From contig NZ_CP032762.1 of assembly GCF_003641205.1 (NCBI RefSeq), positions 5,662,001 to 5,726,000 of the forward strand: a stretch of DNA of 64,000 nucleotides, read 5' to 3'. The translations under genes were made by a program, and so were the position numbers. The notes under the pieces were generated by a model. It searched no databases. It was not told the origin of the DNA and saw nothing but the letters and a program-made list of their open reading frames with translations. Within the stretch, counting starts at the first letter, position 1; the number at the start of each line of letters is the position of its first letter. This stretch comes from Rhodococcus sp. P1Y. GTDB taxonomy: Bacteria; Actinomycetota; Actinomycetes; Mycobacteriales; Mycobacteriaceae. Below are positions 2,237-8,960 of this stretch, in pieces.

Positions 2237-2343
2237 CCTCCATCGGTCCTGGCGGGAGCACCCGCACGCGTGCAGCTTTGATGCCCGCGTGATGGTTGCT
2301 GCGACGTCGTCGAGCCAAGGTCTCTCAGTCGCTCTGGATGGTG
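2237..2343 (-). promoter_or_regulatory. SAM-I (S-box) riboswitch upstream of the GNAT-LLM-LLM genes
   Basis: Read on the minus strand, the segment opens with CCATCCAGAGCGAC and continues TGAGAGACC, TTGGCTC and GTCGCAGCAACC. After a variable P3 it carries GGGTGCTCCCGCC and closes with GACCGATGGAGG. These are the S-box landmarks: the P1 strand, the GAGxGAC..GTCGCaGCAACC P2 pairing, the GGTGC element and the closing GATGG of P1. The closing P1 strand contains the GGAGG ribosome binding site of the GNAT gene, so SAM binding should block translation initiation directly. No separate intrinsic terminator is seen before the ATG. Confidence 0.88.
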
Positions 2344-2389
2344 TTTTCAGTTGTAGGAACCGAGCACGATCCCATTCCATTCCCGATCG

Positions 2390-3503: not shown

Positions 3504-4478
3504 TTACGGTGCCTTGCGTGGCAGGCCGGGAGGATTGATGACCGACTCCGAGACAGCCTCGGACTGCAAGCCCCACTTCTCGAGGACCTTCGCGTAGCTG
3601 CCGTCTTCGATGACGTGGTTGATGGCTTCCTGGATCGGCTCGATCAACCCGTTGTCTTTCTTGGTCAGCACGGCGATCTCGCCTTGGAGTGCGTCGCCTG
3701 CGCCGGAGAAGGTGCCGATGACTTCGCTCTCACCTGTGCTAGAGGAGTGGTAGACGGCCGACGGGTTCGGCCCGAAGTAGGCGTCGATACGTCCCGAGCC
3801 GAGGGCGAGGTAGTAGTCCGAGGTGTTCTGGTAGTAGGCGATCTCGGCCGGAGCGAGGCCTTCGGCTGCGTTCTCCTCGTTCCAGTCGACGAGGAGCTGC
3901 TCCTGGTTGGTACCCGAGCCGACACCGATCTTCTTGCCGACGATGTCCTTGCGTCCTTCGATCGTCCAGCCGCTGTCCTTTTTTGCCTCGAATGCGAGGT
4001 TGTCGAGGCGATAGGTCGCGAAGTCGTACTTGTCCTTACGCTCCTCCGTCACAGTGACATTGGAAATGAACACGTCGTTCTCGCCGGAATCGATCTTGAC
4101 GAAGTTCTGCGCCCAGTCGGCAGTCTGACGCTCGTACTGCAGGCCGAGGGTGTCCGCGATCAACCAGGCGATGTCGATCTCCGAACCAACTGGAGTCTTG
4201 TCGTCGGTGGCGTAGAAACCGAGCGGCGGAGTCGAACCAGTCGAACCGGTACCGATCAACGTTCCGCGATCACGAATTGCTTGCGGAACCTTCGCGGCGA
4301 TCTCGTCGACCTTGTCGACGTGGATGCGGCCGGACTGCTCGGGCGAGAGATCGTAGGTGATTCCGTCGGAAGCGGTGACGGTGTTCTCGGCCTCTGGCTC
4401 ACTGCAGGCGCCCACCGTGAGGGCAACTGCTGCAAGAGCCGAAACTAGCACCGCGACGCGGCGGTTGGATCTGGGCAT
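3504..4478 (-). CDS. Amino-acid ABC transporter substrate-binding lipoprotein (SBP family 3)
   Basis: A 324-aa binding protein with a lipoprotein signal: positively charged start MPRSNRR, hydrophobic run, and lipobox VGAC with Cys at about residue 25. The mature part has family-3 features: PLGFYATDDKTPVGSEIDIAWLIAD for substrate recognition, then VFISNVTVTEERKDKYDFA and GKKIGVGSGTNQEQLL in the second lobe. It captures a polar amino acid or a related zwitterion outside the membrane for the adjacent ATPase and permease. The SAM riboswitch upstream of the operon suggests a sulfur amino acid such as methionine, cystine or an S-alkylcysteine. Confidence 0.9.
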   Translation of the reverse strand: MPRSNRRVAVLVSALAAVALTVGACSEPEAENTVTASDGITYDLSPEQSGRIHVDKVDEIAAKVPQAIRDRGTLIGTGSTGSTPPLGFYATDDKTPVGSEIDIAWLIADTLGLQYERQTADWAQNFVKIDSGENDVFISNVTVTEERKDKYDFATYRLDNLAFEAKKDSGWTIEGRKDIVGKKIGVGSGTNQEQLLVDWNEENAAEGLAPAEIAYYQNTSDYYLALGSGRIDAYFGPNPSAVYHSSSTGESEVIGTFSGAGDALQGEIAVLTKKDNGLIEPIQEAINHVIEDGSYAKVLEKWGLQSEAVSESVINPPGLPRKAP

Positions 4479-4513: not shown

Positions 4514-5311
4514 CTAGAGGACGTGTGCGAGGAACGACTTGGTGCGTTCCTCTTGTGGATTGTCGAGAAGTTCTGCGGGCGAACCCTGTTCAACCACCTG
4601 ACCCGCGTCCATGAAGACGATGGTGTCGGCGATCTCGCGAGCGAATCCGACCTCGTGGGTGACGATCACCAAGGTTGCGCCCTCACGGGCTAGTCCTCTG
4701 ATCACTTCGAGGACCTCGCCGACCAATTCGGGGTCAAGGGCCGACGTCGGTTCGTCGAAGAGAATAACTTTGGGTCGCAATGCAAGTGCGCGAGCGATGG
4801 CGACCCGCTGCTGCTGACCACCGGACAGGCGTCGGGGATAGTCATGCGCTTTGTCCTTCAACCCGACCCGCTCGAGAAGCGCGAGCGCCTCGGGCTCGAC
4901 GTCGGACTTCCTGCGCTTCTGGGCCGAGATCGGCGCTTCGATCACGTTCTCCAGCACCGTCAGATGTGGGAAGAGATTGAAGTTCTGGAAGACGAAACCG
5001 ATCTGCGAGCGTTGACGAAGGATGTCCTTGTTGCCCAGCTCGTGCAGCTTGTTTCCCTTGCGCCGATATCCGACGAGATCATTGTCGACGCGGACTGTCC
5101 CCTGGTCCACCTTCTCGAGGTGATTGAGGCTACGGAGCAGAGTGGACTTCCCCGATCCGGACGGTCCGATGACGACGGTGACTTCACCCGGCCGAACCAC
5201 GAGGTCGACGCCTTTGAGCACTTCGAGCGTGCCGTAGGACTTGTGAACCCCGCGAACCTCGACCGCATACTTGGTCTTCGACGGTGACGTCGATGCATCG
5301 AGCGTCGTCAT
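4514..5311 (-). CDS. Amino-acid ABC transporter ATP-binding protein (GlnQ/TcyN type)
   Basis: A 265-aa ATPase starting MTTLDASTSPSKTKYAVEVRGVHKSYG. Walker A is IGPSGSGKSTLLRS, the signature is LSGGQQQRVAIARALAL, and Walker B is VILFDEPTSALDPELVGEV, followed by the H-loop IVTHEVGFARE. The LRSLNHLEKVDQG segment and the FPHLTVLENV segment are typical of polar amino-acid importers. The start codon overlaps the permease stop as ATGA and is preceded by a strong purine-rich ribosome binding site. The open frame continues upstream into the permease in another frame, but that extension is not a real protein part. Confidence 0.93.
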   Translation of the reverse strand: MTTLDASTSPSKTKYAVEVRGVHKSYGTLEVLKGVDLVVRPGEVTVVIGPSGSGKSTLLRSLNHLEKVDQGTVRVDNDLVGYRRKGNKLHELGNKDILRQRSQIGFVFQNFNLFPHLTVLENVIEAPISAQKRRKSDVEPEALALLERVGLKDKAHDYPRRLSGGQQQRVAIARALALRPKVILFDEPTSALDPELVGEVLEVIRGLAREGATLVIVTHEVGFAREIADTIVFMDAGQVVEQGSPAELLDNPQEERTKSFLAHVL

Positions 5312-6264
5312 CGTGTTCCTCCTCCGCGCGGCGGGGCGGTGATTTCCGATAGTTTCTTGCGGACCTTCTGAACCGGCGTGAGCGGGATGTTGCGGACTGC
5401 GCCCTTGGCGTAGTGACGTTCGACGTAGAACTGCACGACCGACAGGATCGATGTGAGCACGATGTACCAGACGGTTGCGACCATGAGCAGCGGTACCACG
5501 CGACCGTTGCGTCCATACACGACCTGGACCTGGTAGAACAGCTCGGCGATAGCCATGACCGACACGATCGACGTGCCCTTGAACAGGCTGATCACTTCGT
5601 TCGCCGCGTTGGGCAGGATGCCGCGCATCGCCTGGGGCAGGATGATCTTGAAGAACTCGCGATGCTTCGGTATGCCAAGCGCTGCAGCAGCTTCCAACTG
5701 ACCCTGGTCGACGGAAATGATGCCGGCACGGACGATCTCCGCCGAGTAGGCCGCTTGATGCAGCGCCAACCCGATGATCGCGGCTGTGGAACCACTGATC
5801 ACGCTGTTGACGTCGAACTCGAAGAAGGCCGGTCCGAACGGAATTCCCAGGGTCAGAGTCTGATACAGGTAGGCAATGTTGAACCAGAACAGTAGCTGCA
5901 CGATAAGCGGTATCGACCGGAACGCCCAGATGTAGAACCACGAAATCGTCTGCAACACCGGATTGTTCGATAGTCTGGCGATTGCCAGCGCTATGCCGAT
6001 GACGAATCCGATCAGAGTGCCCCAGAACGTGAGCTGAATGGTCAGCCAGAGAGCAGCGAGGATCGACGGCGCAGCGAAGTATTCTGCGAAGGTCCCCCAG
6101 TCCCAACCTGGGTTCGTGGCAAGACCGTGCACGAACTGTGCGACGAGTGTCAGCACCACGATGCTGGTCACCCAGCGCCACGGGTGCCACTTTCTGGCAA
6201 CGACGAGCTGTTCGTCATCGACGTGTTCGTCTACGGCCGTGGGCCGAGAATCTAGCTGAGTCAC
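5308..6264 (-). CDS. Amino-acid ABC transporter permease
   Basis: A 318-aa membrane protein with about six hydrophobic segments. It has the EAA-type loop AAALGIPKHREFFKIILPQAMRGILPN and the conserved FRSIPLIVQLLFWF segment of the HisM/GlnP family. The N-terminal 35-residue cytosolic extension is somewhat long. A single permease gene is present, so a homodimer is likely. The start is GTG at 6264; a 9-codon ORF (6261-6290, MHTHSRRSR) ends across it as GTGA and may couple translation. The gene is the first long CDS of the unit headed by the 6.5-kb SAM riboswitch and its leader peptide. Confidence 0.92.
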   Translation of the reverse strand: MTQLDSRPTAVDEHVDDEQLVVARKWHPWRWVTSIVVLTLVAQFVHGLATNPGWDWGTFAEYFAAPSILAALWLTIQLTFWGTLIGFVIGIALAIARLSNNPVLQTISWFYIWAFRSIPLIVQLLFWFNIAYLYQTLTLGIPFGPAFFEFDVNSVISGSTAAIIGLALHQAAYSAEIVRAGIISVDQGQLEAAAALGIPKHREFFKIILPQAMRGILPNAANEVISLFKGTSIVSVMAIAELFYQVQVVYGRNGRVVPLLMVATVWYIVLTSILSVVQFYVERHYAKGAVRNIPLTPVQKVRKKLSEITAPPRGGGTR

Positions 6265-6409
6265 CGGGACCGCCGGCTGTGTGTGTGCATGACGAGATCG
6301 AGCCTTCTTCCGAGGGAAATGCGTGATGAGAAACAGGTCCTCCGACCGGCCGACGCTTCGGCCGTCGAGAGCCCCGTTCAGCAGGAATCGATGCGCGGGT
6401 ACCGACTCT

Positions 6410-6493
6410 TCAGAGCAGGAAGTGCCCTGTACAAGTGCGGGTGCCGACCCGAGACAGGTCGACGTACAGACCTCGCCACGTGCGACAGTTCAT
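6410..6493 (-). CDS. Cys-containing leader peptide (27 aa) after the SAM riboswitch
   Basis: A short ORF that starts with ATG four bases after GGAGG. The peptide contains LYVDLSRVGTRTC, which fits the actinobacterial 'putative leader peptide' pattern (VDLxRVxxxxC) found upstream of sulfur-assimilation genes. It carries a second Cys at residue 3. Its ribosome binding site is the closing P1 strand of the SAM-I riboswitch, so SAM should repress its translation. Downstream, before the permease, a GGCCGA/TCGGCC hairpin (6348-6363) could act as an attenuator responding to ribosome position. The family match is from memory of the motif; regulation is inferred. Confidence 0.7.
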   Translation of the reverse strand: MNCRTWRGLYVDLSRVGTRTCTGHFLL

Positions 6494-6497
6494 GTGT

Positions 6498-6594
6498 CCT
6501 CCATCGGTCCTGGCGGTAGCACCCACACCTGCCGTGAGGCAGGGGGTTGCTGCGACGTCGTAGAGCCAAGGTCTCTCGGTCGCTCTGGATGGTG
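6498..6594 (-). promoter_or_regulatory. SAM-I (S-box) riboswitch upstream of the amino-acid ABC importer
   Basis: The minus strand reads CACCATCCAGAGCGACC, GAGAGACC, TTGGCTC, GTCGCAGCAACC, then a GCCTCACGGC hairpin (P3), then GGGTGCTACCGCC and GACCGATGGAGG. All the conserved S-box blocks are in order, and the core is nearly identical to the element at 2237-2343, differing mainly in the P3 hairpin. The closing P1 strand overlaps the ribosome binding site of the 27-aa leader ORF rather than that of the transporter gene itself. Confidence 0.88.
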
Positions 6595-6787
6595 AGGGAA
6601 ATGTAAGCGGCCGATAGTGGATCCGTCAAGTCGCCGCAACTGGTTTACTCAGTGCCGCTTGGCAATCGGTTTGAGATCAGGGTGATTTCAAACCTTGCAA
6701 TCTGCGAACCCTTCAGAGCAGCGCCCTGCATACCGCTGGATTTCAGAAGAGTTGCGTCCGAACACCTGTTCGACTAATGTTCTTTCA

Positions 6788-8960
6788 ATGGGGATGCCGG
6801 GGGGCTTCGAGGATCAGATCCGACGCGATAACGACGCGGTCGCTGCGGAACTTCTCGCTGGGCTCACCGATGATCGCCGGACCGAAAACAAAGCTGCCGC
6901 CGCATTGGTTATGCACCTGTTCGAACTCGGCGAATTCCGGTTTGCTGCGGAAGCAGGTATTCACGATCGCGGAGGTGAAGCGGATGTCACTCGTGCCGAT
7001 CGTGCCGTCGAGACGGAAGCTGCTGTTGCGCTCTCACTTTCGCGAACAGTAGTCCGCGACATGATCACCGTTGGCAAGCAGTTGCACTGGAGAATGCCCG
7101 GGATTTGCACAGCCTTCTCTGGCGGCGACCTCGACTATCCGCGCGTTCGGACTATCGCGCTTGTGCTGTCGAAAGTCAGCGACGACACCGTGCGCGCCAT
7201 CGAAGCGGACATACTTGCCAGCGCTCTCCGCTACAGCACGAAGGTATTGCGAGACAAAATCTGGGCCCACTGGTTCGATCATGACAAAGACGAGGCCACC
7301 GCAGCCAGAATCGCCGCCGAGTCAGAGGAGCGTTGCGCCGAGCTCAAAGCGAGCAACGATGGAATGGCCTCATTGTTCGCAAAAATGACGGCTCTCGAAG
7401 GTGCCGAGTGCGATTCGGTGTTGGAGGAGATCGCCGGAACCGTGTGCTCACGGGACCCTCGTACCAAGAGGCAGTTGCGTGGACATGCCTTGGTCGCGCT
7501 GATCCATCGAGAGGACGCCGTCGCGTGTCTGTGCGGCAAGGAGGACTGCCCGGTGCGTGGCGCAGTAGACCTCACTCCGAAGCGCCGGCCCCACCTCTTG
7601 CAAATACTGATCAGTGCCGAATCGTTGCTCGGGTTGACCAGTGAGCCTGCAACTCTCGGAGATGGAACCGTCCTGGATCCGGAGACCGCCCGATTGATCG
7701 CAGGCGACGCTCGGTGGCAGATCCTGCTTACCGAATTCCTTGACGCCGCGAAAGCGCAGGTCGGCGGGCAGGACGCGAGTCGCCAGCCAGAACCTTCGGC
7801 TGAAACAGCTGCTAGCTGCGATCGCAGCGGTAACGACGAAACCGGTGGCGGTTGCGGTGGTGATTCGGGAACCCCAGGCAACACCGGACCCGAGCCGGGG
7901 CCTTTTGGAGACGACGGGCCACAGCCTCGGCCTCCCGGGGATACGGGTCCGAACTCGGGATCCCCCGGCGGGCCGCGGGCATTCCGGATCATCGCGCGCG
8001 GTCGAACCCGTGCTGCCGCACCGCTTCCTACCCCGGGCGGGCGCCAGAGCACGGATCCGAACGGTGTCTCCCCCTCCGCCGGCGCCACCCCTTCGGCCGG
8101 CGCCTCCCCTCCGCCTCGTCACTGCGAGGTCAGGCCGTGGCGGCAGCATCGCAGGCCGAGAGGTTCAGCTGTCGGCGGCAATTGCGGCTTTCCTGGCCGC
8201 AGCGGCCGAAGATCCGTCGTTGACTCAGGGCATCTACCCCGACGGCCACGGCGGATTCGCCGAACCACCGGCGGGAGCGTTGACGTACAGACCCTCGGCC
8301 GAACTGGTTGCGCTCACCCGTGCGACGCACTGCACCTGCACTTTTCCCAATTGCAGTGTGCCCGCAACGCGGTGCGAGATCGACCACATCGTCCCGTTCG
8401 ACCACGACGATCCTTTGGCCGGCGGATGGACGATCGCGTCGAACTTGCAACCTTTGTGCAATTTTCACCATCAGTCGAAAACCATGAAGCTGTGGGCGGC
8501 TGCGAAATTGGGCGGAGACGGCGTCTTCTGGACGTCGTGTGCCGGCTTGCGCCGAGTCACCCCATCGACCTACGGCACCGTGATGATTGCAGACAGTTTC
8601 GTACACAGCGGAAAGCCCCGACCCAACCCTGGTTCACCCGTGGACCCGGGCTGTGCGTACACCTTCACGGACATGGACGTTGCGACCGACGACTCACCAA
8701 CCGAAGCCGCAGAACCCATCGCCAATGGACCGTCCGACGAACTGTACGAACCAACGTGGTGGGAGACCAACATTGGCGAGCACAGCGAGTGGTACGACCT
8801 GATCAACACCGACCGAGCAGCTTTCGTACCGTCACTCGGCGACATCGCCCGACTGAAGGATCCGCAGGAACGAGAAGATGCAATCTTTCTCCGGGAGCGG
8901 TTTCTCGAGCACCGAGCAGTCGTAACCGCGAGAGAACGCTATCGCCCGCCGCCGTTCTGA
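6788..8960 (+). pseudogene. DUF222 / HNH endonuclease-motif protein, frameshifted
   Basis: The N-terminal DUF222 part (from MGMPGGFEDQIRRDNDAV) runs in one frame to about 8100. The C-terminal HNH part (CTFPNCSVPATRCEIDHIVP ... LQPLCNFHHQS, around 8336-8480) lies in the next frame (+1) and ends at 8960. Together they make the standard architecture of actinobacterial REP13E12-like proteins: DUF222, a Gly/Pro-rich linker, then HNH. The frame change falls in the low-complexity linker at about 8040-8125, which includes a run of five C (tctccccctcc). It may be a real inactivating indel or a sequencing slip in a C-tract. Function in this family is unclear; nuclease activity is predicted from the HNH motif. 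Confidence 0.75.

Follow-up and report, generated by a model that had tools for sequence, protein, structure and literature searches.

A SAM-I riboswitch whose closing helix holds the ribosome-binding site of a cysteine leader peptide: probable in-series control of a sulfur-nutrient importer in Rhodococcus sp. P1Y

An ABC importer operon of Rhodococcus sp. P1Y is preceded by an S-box aptamer and by a short open reading frame with cysteine codons, an arrangement that raises the question of whether a single RNA may respond to SAM and cysteine in series: would SAM decide whether the leader is translated, and would translation of the leader in turn decide whether the importer is expressed? We considered this question in the window, the whole analysed stretch of 64,000 nucleotides that lies near the end of the single contig forming the 5.87 Mb genome, and in related genomes, the closest named relatives by importer permease being Rhodococcoides/Rhodococcus strains. 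The features of the locus are the following.

6600..6629, minus strand: sigma-70-like promoter, TTGACG - 18 nt - TACATT (1 found, 0.1 expected in shuffles)
6498..6595, minus strand: S-box aptamer, SAM-I (RF00162), 53.1 bits; a whole-genome search recovers the same site
6498..6505, minus strand: 3' strand of P1, GATGGAGG, from the sequence and the covariance-model alignment
6498-6502, minus strand: Shine-Dalgarno sequence of the leader, GGAGG, within the P1 3' strand, from the sequence
6410..6493, minus strand: leader ORF MNCRTWRGLYVDLSRVGTRTCTGHFLL, 27 aa, Cys codons 3 and 21, from the sequence, its translation and ortholog leaders
6347..6364, minus strand: hairpin of 7 bp, from folding (-13.5 kcal/mol); the output element proposed in the initial annotation
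6261..6290, minus strand: mini-ORF MHTHSRRSR with its stop overlapping the permease start (GTGA); Shine-Dalgarno sequence GAAGG at 6303-6307
5308..6264, minus strand: ABC permease, the first structural gene, GTG start (PF00528; best NCBIfam model cystine permease PRK15100.1, below cut-off)
4514..5266, minus strand: ABC ATPase, start approximate (PF00005; best NCBIfam model TcyN, below cut-off)
3504..4478, minus strand: solute-binding protein, family 3 (PF00497; best NCBIfam model cystine SBP, below cut-off)

The aptamer matches RF00162 over its full length (positions 1-108) with 53.1 bits against a gathering score of 44.4 (E 2.2e-9), which places it in the SAM-I class, and the covariance-model alignment of P1 contains one non-standard pair. 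The initial annotation had located the ribosome-binding site of a Cys leader within P1, and this description was recovered exactly on the minus strand: GATGGAGG at 6505-6498 contains GGAGG, which is separated by the four bases ACAC from the ATG (6493-6491) of a 27-aa frame carrying the VDLxRVxxxxC signature. The expression platform is thus linked to P1 through a Shine-Dalgarno sequence inside its 3' strand, the only one within reach of the leader start, and S-box sites lying directly before protein genes likewise hold the Shine-Dalgarno sequence in the P1 3' strand. By sequence and comparison, the layout is that of riboswitch-controlled uORFs of the ppe2/Mbox type, with the Shine-Dalgarno sequence of the uORF predicted to be under aptamer control. 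A leaderless start of the Ms5788A type does not apply here, as the leader begins downstream of the aptamer, roughly 100 nt from the promoter.

The -10 element of the promoter ends 4 nt upstream of the aptamer, and the transcript probably starts at P1 or just before it. In S-box-leader loci, a TANNNT hexamer ends 2-12 nt upstream of the aptamer in 75 of the 77 distinct cases; the background is 1.3%. In a ligand-free fold of this region by itself (z -1.41), leader codons displace the 5' strand of P1 as the preferred partner of its 3' strand; this single-sequence prediction would agree with a leader left open when SAM is low, but is weak evidence. It is likely that SAM gates initiation on the leader: by the presumed effect of the ligand, P1 would form with SAM bound and bury the leader Shine-Dalgarno sequence, leaving the leader untranslated and the importer off, while at low SAM P1 would open and ribosomes would enter the leader.

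The same genome offers further S-boxes for comparison. The notion that the three others all act on protein genes had to be abandoned, since one of them, C1:5657505-5657609 (L002), instead forms a second S-box and Cys-leader module besides that of the window. At the two remaining S-boxes, the P1 Shine-Dalgarno sequence serves a protein gene with no leader in between, a GNAT gene in one case and an oxidoreductase-like gene in the other, and SAM is hence expected to gate whichever ORF comes first. The L002 module is situated some 4.5 kb outside the window, where the leader GRIHLDLCRLTGSICRG is followed by a lipoprotein binding-protein gene. The second and weaker S-box of the window (2237-2344, minus strand; 43.6 bits, just under the gathering score) has a P1 Shine-Dalgarno sequence that directly precedes a GNAT acetyltransferase gene (2226-1714, minus strand). 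Together with the LLM monooxygenase (644-1717), the importer and an FAD oxidoreductase, this looks like a putative cluster for the uptake and breakdown of S-alkyl-cysteine.

Is the arrangement held in relatives? Among 80 permease loci fetched by protein similarity, an S-box lies upstream in 19 according to pattern and reading, the remaining 61 having been judged by the pattern screen alone, and at 18 of these 19 a short ORF with Cys codons comes next after the P1 strand. An Rfam scan passed all 14 of the 19 loci submitted to it, and gave no match in two S-box-free permease loci (L021 and L025). Leader ORF, start and Cys motif recur after S-boxes in relatives, the conservation on which the initial annotation had staked its claim. 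The main ortholog leader type reads MxxxTWRRLHVDLCRVGTCTC; other forms comprise the 9-codon MNICTCTHA, a one-Cys MNTCIRTPA at two loci of one contig (L016 and L017), the poly-Cys type EWCRECCCACTRR, and IDLCAATAGSC in the leader of Nocardia panacis.

A genus survey returned S-boxes in 22 of 37 genomes, at 51 places, and a family survey in 114 of 401 genomes. All 51 genus places were fetched along with 111 more family places from among the better matches listed, and the resulting 162 loci, less two unparsed (L160 and L161) and four duplicates, left 156 distinct sites for classification. Leaders were counted if they begin 9-20 nt downstream of the first G in GATGG. A Cys leader is within reach of P1 at 88 of the 156, a protein gene follows directly at 40, and at the remaining 28 the first ORF falls outside both classes (counted leader, long gene); judged from these counts, Cys leader placement after the S-box exceeds chance at the family sites. 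A looser count had given 91, from which L213, L253 and L257 were dropped, and L221 within the 88 is doubtful, while the importer ortholog L134 (MNTCIRTPA, one Cys) stays in the 'other' class under the counting rule. The 88 leader sites are spread over 60 genomes and nine genus labels, comprise 65 distinct peptides, and occur twice or more in 28 genomes, and the downstream genes examined in leader loci are mostly transport genes. At 82 of the sites the P1 strand reads GATGGAGG (64) or GATGGAAGG (18), the other six differing, and at five of these six (g87 and g95) it is without a clear Shine-Dalgarno sequence. The D-x-x-R motif, [HYC][VIL]D[LFQ]x[RK], is found at 80 of the 88, the other eight having been counted on close-set Cys alone. 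The number of Cys per leader is 1 at two sites, 2 at 36, 3 at 39, 4 at seven, 5 at two and 6 at two, with C+9 absent from two g87 leaders of one Cys each.

The arrangement extends to a second family. When 397 genomes of the order were searched by pattern, 34 contained the same P1/SD core, and 24 of the 30 loci returned belong to family f14. All 24 fetched f14 loci, a set outside of which lie five further listed f14 places, present a leader such as MRILTTRRVIDQCRRTVTACRRTRVSG and then an ABC ATPase ORF; three of these ORFs were scanned, with MetN as the best NCBIfam model at 175-205 bits, short of its cut-off of 499.7, hence 'MetN-like'. Rfam supports the S-box in all ten loci tested, nine being f14. 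By sequence, the device recurs in two families or more, and the importers it precedes are of several types. Elsewhere in the order, parsing succeeded for 27 of the 30 best-scoring S-boxes, and in 25 of these an ORF of 418-425 aa follows immediately (the exceptions being L101, with 202 aa, and L086, with none under the start rule used); the two of these ORFs that were scanned exceed the cut-off of TIGR00260, a threonine synthase model. As a separate observation, the f14 leaders (L314-L337) follow a LTxRRVxDxxRRxVxACRR pattern before the MetN-like genes; the four peptides scanned reached no NCBIfam cut-off, and the f14 leaders perhaps constitute an unrecorded leader family.

The repeated co-occurrence of S-box and leader in two families speaks against a sceptical alternative, namely that the S-box alone acts, on transcription or decay, and that the leader is a passenger from a leaderless ancestor. 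The S-box of R. trifolii (L020), where the P1 Shine-Dalgarno sequence acts directly on the permease without any leader, is in favour of such a passenger, and so is the drifted copy of the window. Selection on the peptide runs counter to it: pN/pS across the 14-codon leader core amounts to 0.29, 0.13, 0.12, 0.15, 0.14 and 0.01 in six groups, a pattern of protein-level purifying selection on these cores. Also considering the absence of a general output structure in the tests described below, which suits the passenger, we regard this alternative as very improbable.

The window copy itself is atypical within its kind, as judged from the alignments. It keeps D0, R+3 and C+9, and has exchanged C+2 for Ser, C+7 for Arg, R-4 for Gly and H-2 for Tyr, with a pN/pS of 0.43 versus relatives, compared with 0.25 for the relatives among themselves. 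Because two of the usual Cys codons are lost, the Cys response of this copy may be weaker than in relatives. The short-ORF VDLxR...C motif upstream of sulfur/transport genes is present in it, and an NCBIfam scan of the window leader matched no model, NF042934 (cut-off 27 bits) included. Of five relatives scanned against NF042934, three have leaders that pass (34.5-41.8 bits); the two below the cut-off are the R. yunnanensis ortholog, at 26.9 bits, and the Umezawaea leader, which has no S-box, at 22.5.

Leaders of the same type without a riboswitch allow a direct comparison. From a longer list of matches, 34 NF042934-type loci of the genus were fetched and examined (L278 being left out), 9 with an S-box upstream and 25 without. 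In 23 of the 25, TANNNT is located 5-9 nt before an in-frame start, any in-frame start candidate being allowed, at a background of 0.5% per position, and the S-box-free leaders of the genus thus mostly look leaderless. Since the hexamer precedes the aptamer in S-box loci and the start codon in S-box-free loci, the riboswitch, positioned between promoter and leader, by this comparison replaces an apparently ungated start by a P1-dependent, presumably SAM-gated one. The own genome also holds four Cys-leader candidates without an S-box (L274-L277), all below the NF042934 cut-off, three of them with a -10-like hexamer 6-7 nt upstream of the start codon.

What, then, is read in the leader? In 68 distinct peptides from the looser count, 9.51% of the codons are Cys when the leader frame is read; the two other forward frames have 5.51 and 2.20%, the reverse frames 1.65-5.8%. 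In distinct leaders aligned on D, Cys at D+9, a position free of anchoring, is present in 57 of 59 first-family leaders, 20 of 20 second-family leaders and 12 of 12 leaderless-like ones, the latter being the distinct peptides among the 23 above with L275 and L293 left out. Similarly free of anchoring, R at -4 is as strict (56/59, 20/20 and 11/12), and is held in S-box-gated, leaderless-like and second-family leaders alike. The strictness of R-4 hints at an arrest peptide, an alternative that overlaps our preferred explanation, in which the D0/R+3/C+9 nascent chain would stall on a sulfur metabolite instead of Cys-tRNA being counted. Congruent with arrest, 12 of 20 f14 leaders are without C+2 and 17 of 20 without C+7, and many have little beyond C+9. 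The conservation of D, R/K+3, -2, -1 and +1 is however partly by construction, the S-box-set alignment having been anchored on D0, R/K+3, -2 and -1 (plus +1 in the first set) and the leaderless set on D0, -2, -1 and +1. Moreover, poly-Cys leaders (CRECCCAC, LCRLGGCCC) fit codon counting, the motif is absent in 5 of 64 distinct first-family leaders (9-codon forms such as MNICTCTHA and poly-Cys forms), and by eye the S-box-free L293, outside the alignment table, has no Cys at +9, which is present in L275. On balance, stalling on a metabolite in place of Cys-tRNA counting appears rather unlikely.

We then turn to the output of the leader, which ends (6410) 145 nt upstream of the permease GTG. The 6348-6363 hairpin, proposed initially as the decision point, does exist, but it is devoid of a U-tract and of a consistent ortholog counterpart, and this portion of the claim is not retained. 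No terminator-like site was found at 6200-6800, and a classical transcription attenuator was rejected for want of an intrinsic terminator with a U-run in this range, the region 6264-6409 folding no better than shuffles (z +1.26). The long spacer of the window copy contains a strong local hairpin and shows no C bias (C/(C+G) 0.52). Of ten orthologous spacers, eight measure 30-54 nt and are weakly folded (-2.0 to -5.2 kcal/mol), and the two long ones (L133 and L135) have hairpins of their own, unrelated in sequence to that of the window.

A general release of the downstream Shine-Dalgarno sequence by a ribosome on the last Cys codon was likewise rejected, as masking of this codon yields no mean gain: predicted accessibility was on average 0.472 free and 0.459 masked in importer-type loci (n=35), and 0.315 free and 0.326 masked in SBP-type loci (n=39). 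With the most favourable Cys codon masked in every leader, the values are 0.563 (importer-type) and 0.364 (SBP-type), both inflated by selection of the maximum. Single loci respond in either direction, with gains in L131 (0.24 to 0.73) and L197 (0.45 to 0.78, first Cys) and a loss in L203 (0.49 to 0.09), and release by a stalled ribosome may, according to these predictions, hold in some groups. Alignment folding of six groups, importer-type A and As of the window's genus lying outside them, uncovered 0-3 two-sided-change pairs of 27-78 and no covarying leader-to-SD structure. A flat verdict of 'no structure' is nevertheless opposed by the 17 of 70 spacers that fold better than shuffles at z < -2 (mean z -0.85 for importer-type, n=31, and -1.56 for SBP-type, n=39). 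By eye, AGATC beside the SBP Shine-Dalgarno sequence is complementary to GATCT in leader codons of the g10 and g1 groups, a pairing for which no covariation was seen in L197-L216 and the g1 binding-protein operons, and CCACCTCC may pair with GGTGAGGGAG at the permease Shine-Dalgarno sequence in the same groups.

Another route from leader to importer is plain coupling or shielding, where SAM would gate the leader so that Rho is kept off or ribosomes are fed onward, and where the Cys codons are without regulatory meaning. An SD-led mini-ORF with an NTGA overlap at the permease start is found at 34 of 35 distinct importer-type leader loci (the overlap of L245 being trivial and L144 having none; L125, L126, L235 and L237 are left out of the set, with no recognisable permease frame). 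The available parts of the work on M. tuberculosis riboswitch-controlled uORFs discuss NTGA overlaps together with Rho-dependent termination (PMC11260477, PMC12810186), the overlap at ppe2 coupling translation (PMC11260477). Furthermore, the spacers are C-rich: the mean C/(C+G) is 0.637 in 73 spacers, 72 of which have more C than G, compared with 0.516 in 25 regions taken from this window, although the 73 are related to one another. These features support coupling, and the C-richness is consistent, if weakened by relatedness, with the proposal of Rho for terminator-free actinobacterial Cys leaders (2005; PMC1262725, in the part available). On the other hand, the available part of a 2026 paper has Cys genes of M. 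smegmatis regulated by translation attenuation, which points away from Rho. Both the D+9 Cys, kept by 57 of 59 first-family and 20 of 20 second-family leaders, and the enrichment of Cys in frame are at odds with codons lacking regulatory meaning, and the leader stop lies 24-158 nt upstream of the next Shine-Dalgarno sequence (74 loci), making direct reinitiation unlikely for most. Coupling with the Cys codons as bystanders is thus, in our assessment, unlikely. As to the mini-ORF itself (6290-6261 in the window), the overlap is conserved between genera among the importer-type loci, and the peptide is not.

In-series SAM-and-Cys control is accordingly the best reading of the sequence comparisons, and we consider it fairly probable that a SAM-I riboswitch controls translation initiation on the Cys leader and that the leader in turn controls a sulfur-nutrient importer. 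Its first step is the likely gating by SAM described above; the second, control of the importer by the leader, is probable. Once P1 is open, ribosomes would finish the leader and release when cysteinyl-tRNA is plentiful, and would sit on the D-x-x-R-(5)-C segment when it is scarce or when the nascent peptide arrests. To judge from mycobacterial Cys leaders, a ribosome stalled on the leader would turn importer expression on, perhaps by blocking Rho loading on the spacer or by freeing a ribosome-binding site, and in importer-type operons the second mini-ORF with its NTGA overlap probably delivers ribosomes to the permease. The outcome would be an AND gate, with import only at low SAM plus low cysteine.

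More tentatively, and as a possibility we hold to be somewhat doubtful in its full extent, initiation on a peptide sensor of the arrest type may be gated by the SAM riboswitch. Low SAM and low Cys would then be registered one after the other on one RNA, the fixed D0/R+3/C+9 register would be read by Cys-tRNA or in the ribosome exit tunnel, and a leaderless attenuator would have been converted into a metabolite-gated device that stands ahead of several unrelated importers in two families or more. If the in-series control holds, a riboswitch directly targeting an amino-acid leader would represent two RNA sensors in series, achieving AND logic without proteins. The leaderless-like and riboswitch-gated forms of one leader within the same genomes then provide a natural comparison pair, rendering testable both the second output step of terminator-free actinobacterial Cys attenuators and the reason for peptide conservation beyond their Cys codons.

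Combined RNA sensors have precedents. Salmonella mgtA pairs a Mg2+-responsive leader with mgtL, a peptide with Pro codons, and gates built from tandem riboswitches are also known. In the clostridial ubiG operon, a T-box and an antisense S-box reportedly integrate SAM and Cys by RNA; SAM and Cys converge on one operon in both cases, here presumably through one RNA with the riboswitch first and the leader peptide after it. The open-access literature searched yielded no account of a Cys leader gated by a SAM riboswitch, and no paper with both 'SAM riboswitch' and 'Rhodococcus'. As far as the available portions of the respective papers go, SAM-I riboswitches, leaderless Cys attenuators and riboswitch-gated uORFs have each been described (PMC9031893, PMC13236596, PMC9094748, PMC8632094, PMC9373788, PMC1262725, PMC11260477, PMC12810186).

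Set against these systems, the M. tuberculosis B12/ppe2 (PMC11260477) and Mbox/pe20 (PMC12810186) loci are alike in that a riboswitch gates a uORF ahead of the target gene, and differ in ligand, aptamer and peptide; in the available text they are not described as amino-acid attenuators, the words 'cysteine' and 'attenuat' being absent from that of PMC12810186. The actinobacterial cys-operon leaders of Seliverstov et al. 2005 (PMC1262725) share the runs of Cys codons and the absence of a conserved terminator hairpin, whereas the Cysteine section of that paper describes no riboswitch in series. With the SAM-I/S-box class (RF00162) the locus has in common an aptamer over the gathering score, the P1 closing helix and sulfur-related genes downstream, but here the P1 strand is the Shine-Dalgarno sequence of a leader peptide and not of a metabolic gene, S-boxes directly before threonine synthase genes occurring elsewhere in the order. 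Closest in kind to the leader are the poly-Cys sORF attenuators of mycobacteria and the NF042934/NF042933 models, likewise short ORFs with conserved Cys codons before sulfur genes. The mycobacterial sORFs are leaderless, as stated in the accessible parts of PMC9031893, PMC13236596 and PMC9094748 on the basis of Canestrari et al. 2020, and the S-box-free leaders of the genus display the same hexamer layout, while at the present locus initiation would need a Shine-Dalgarno sequence inside a SAM riboswitch.
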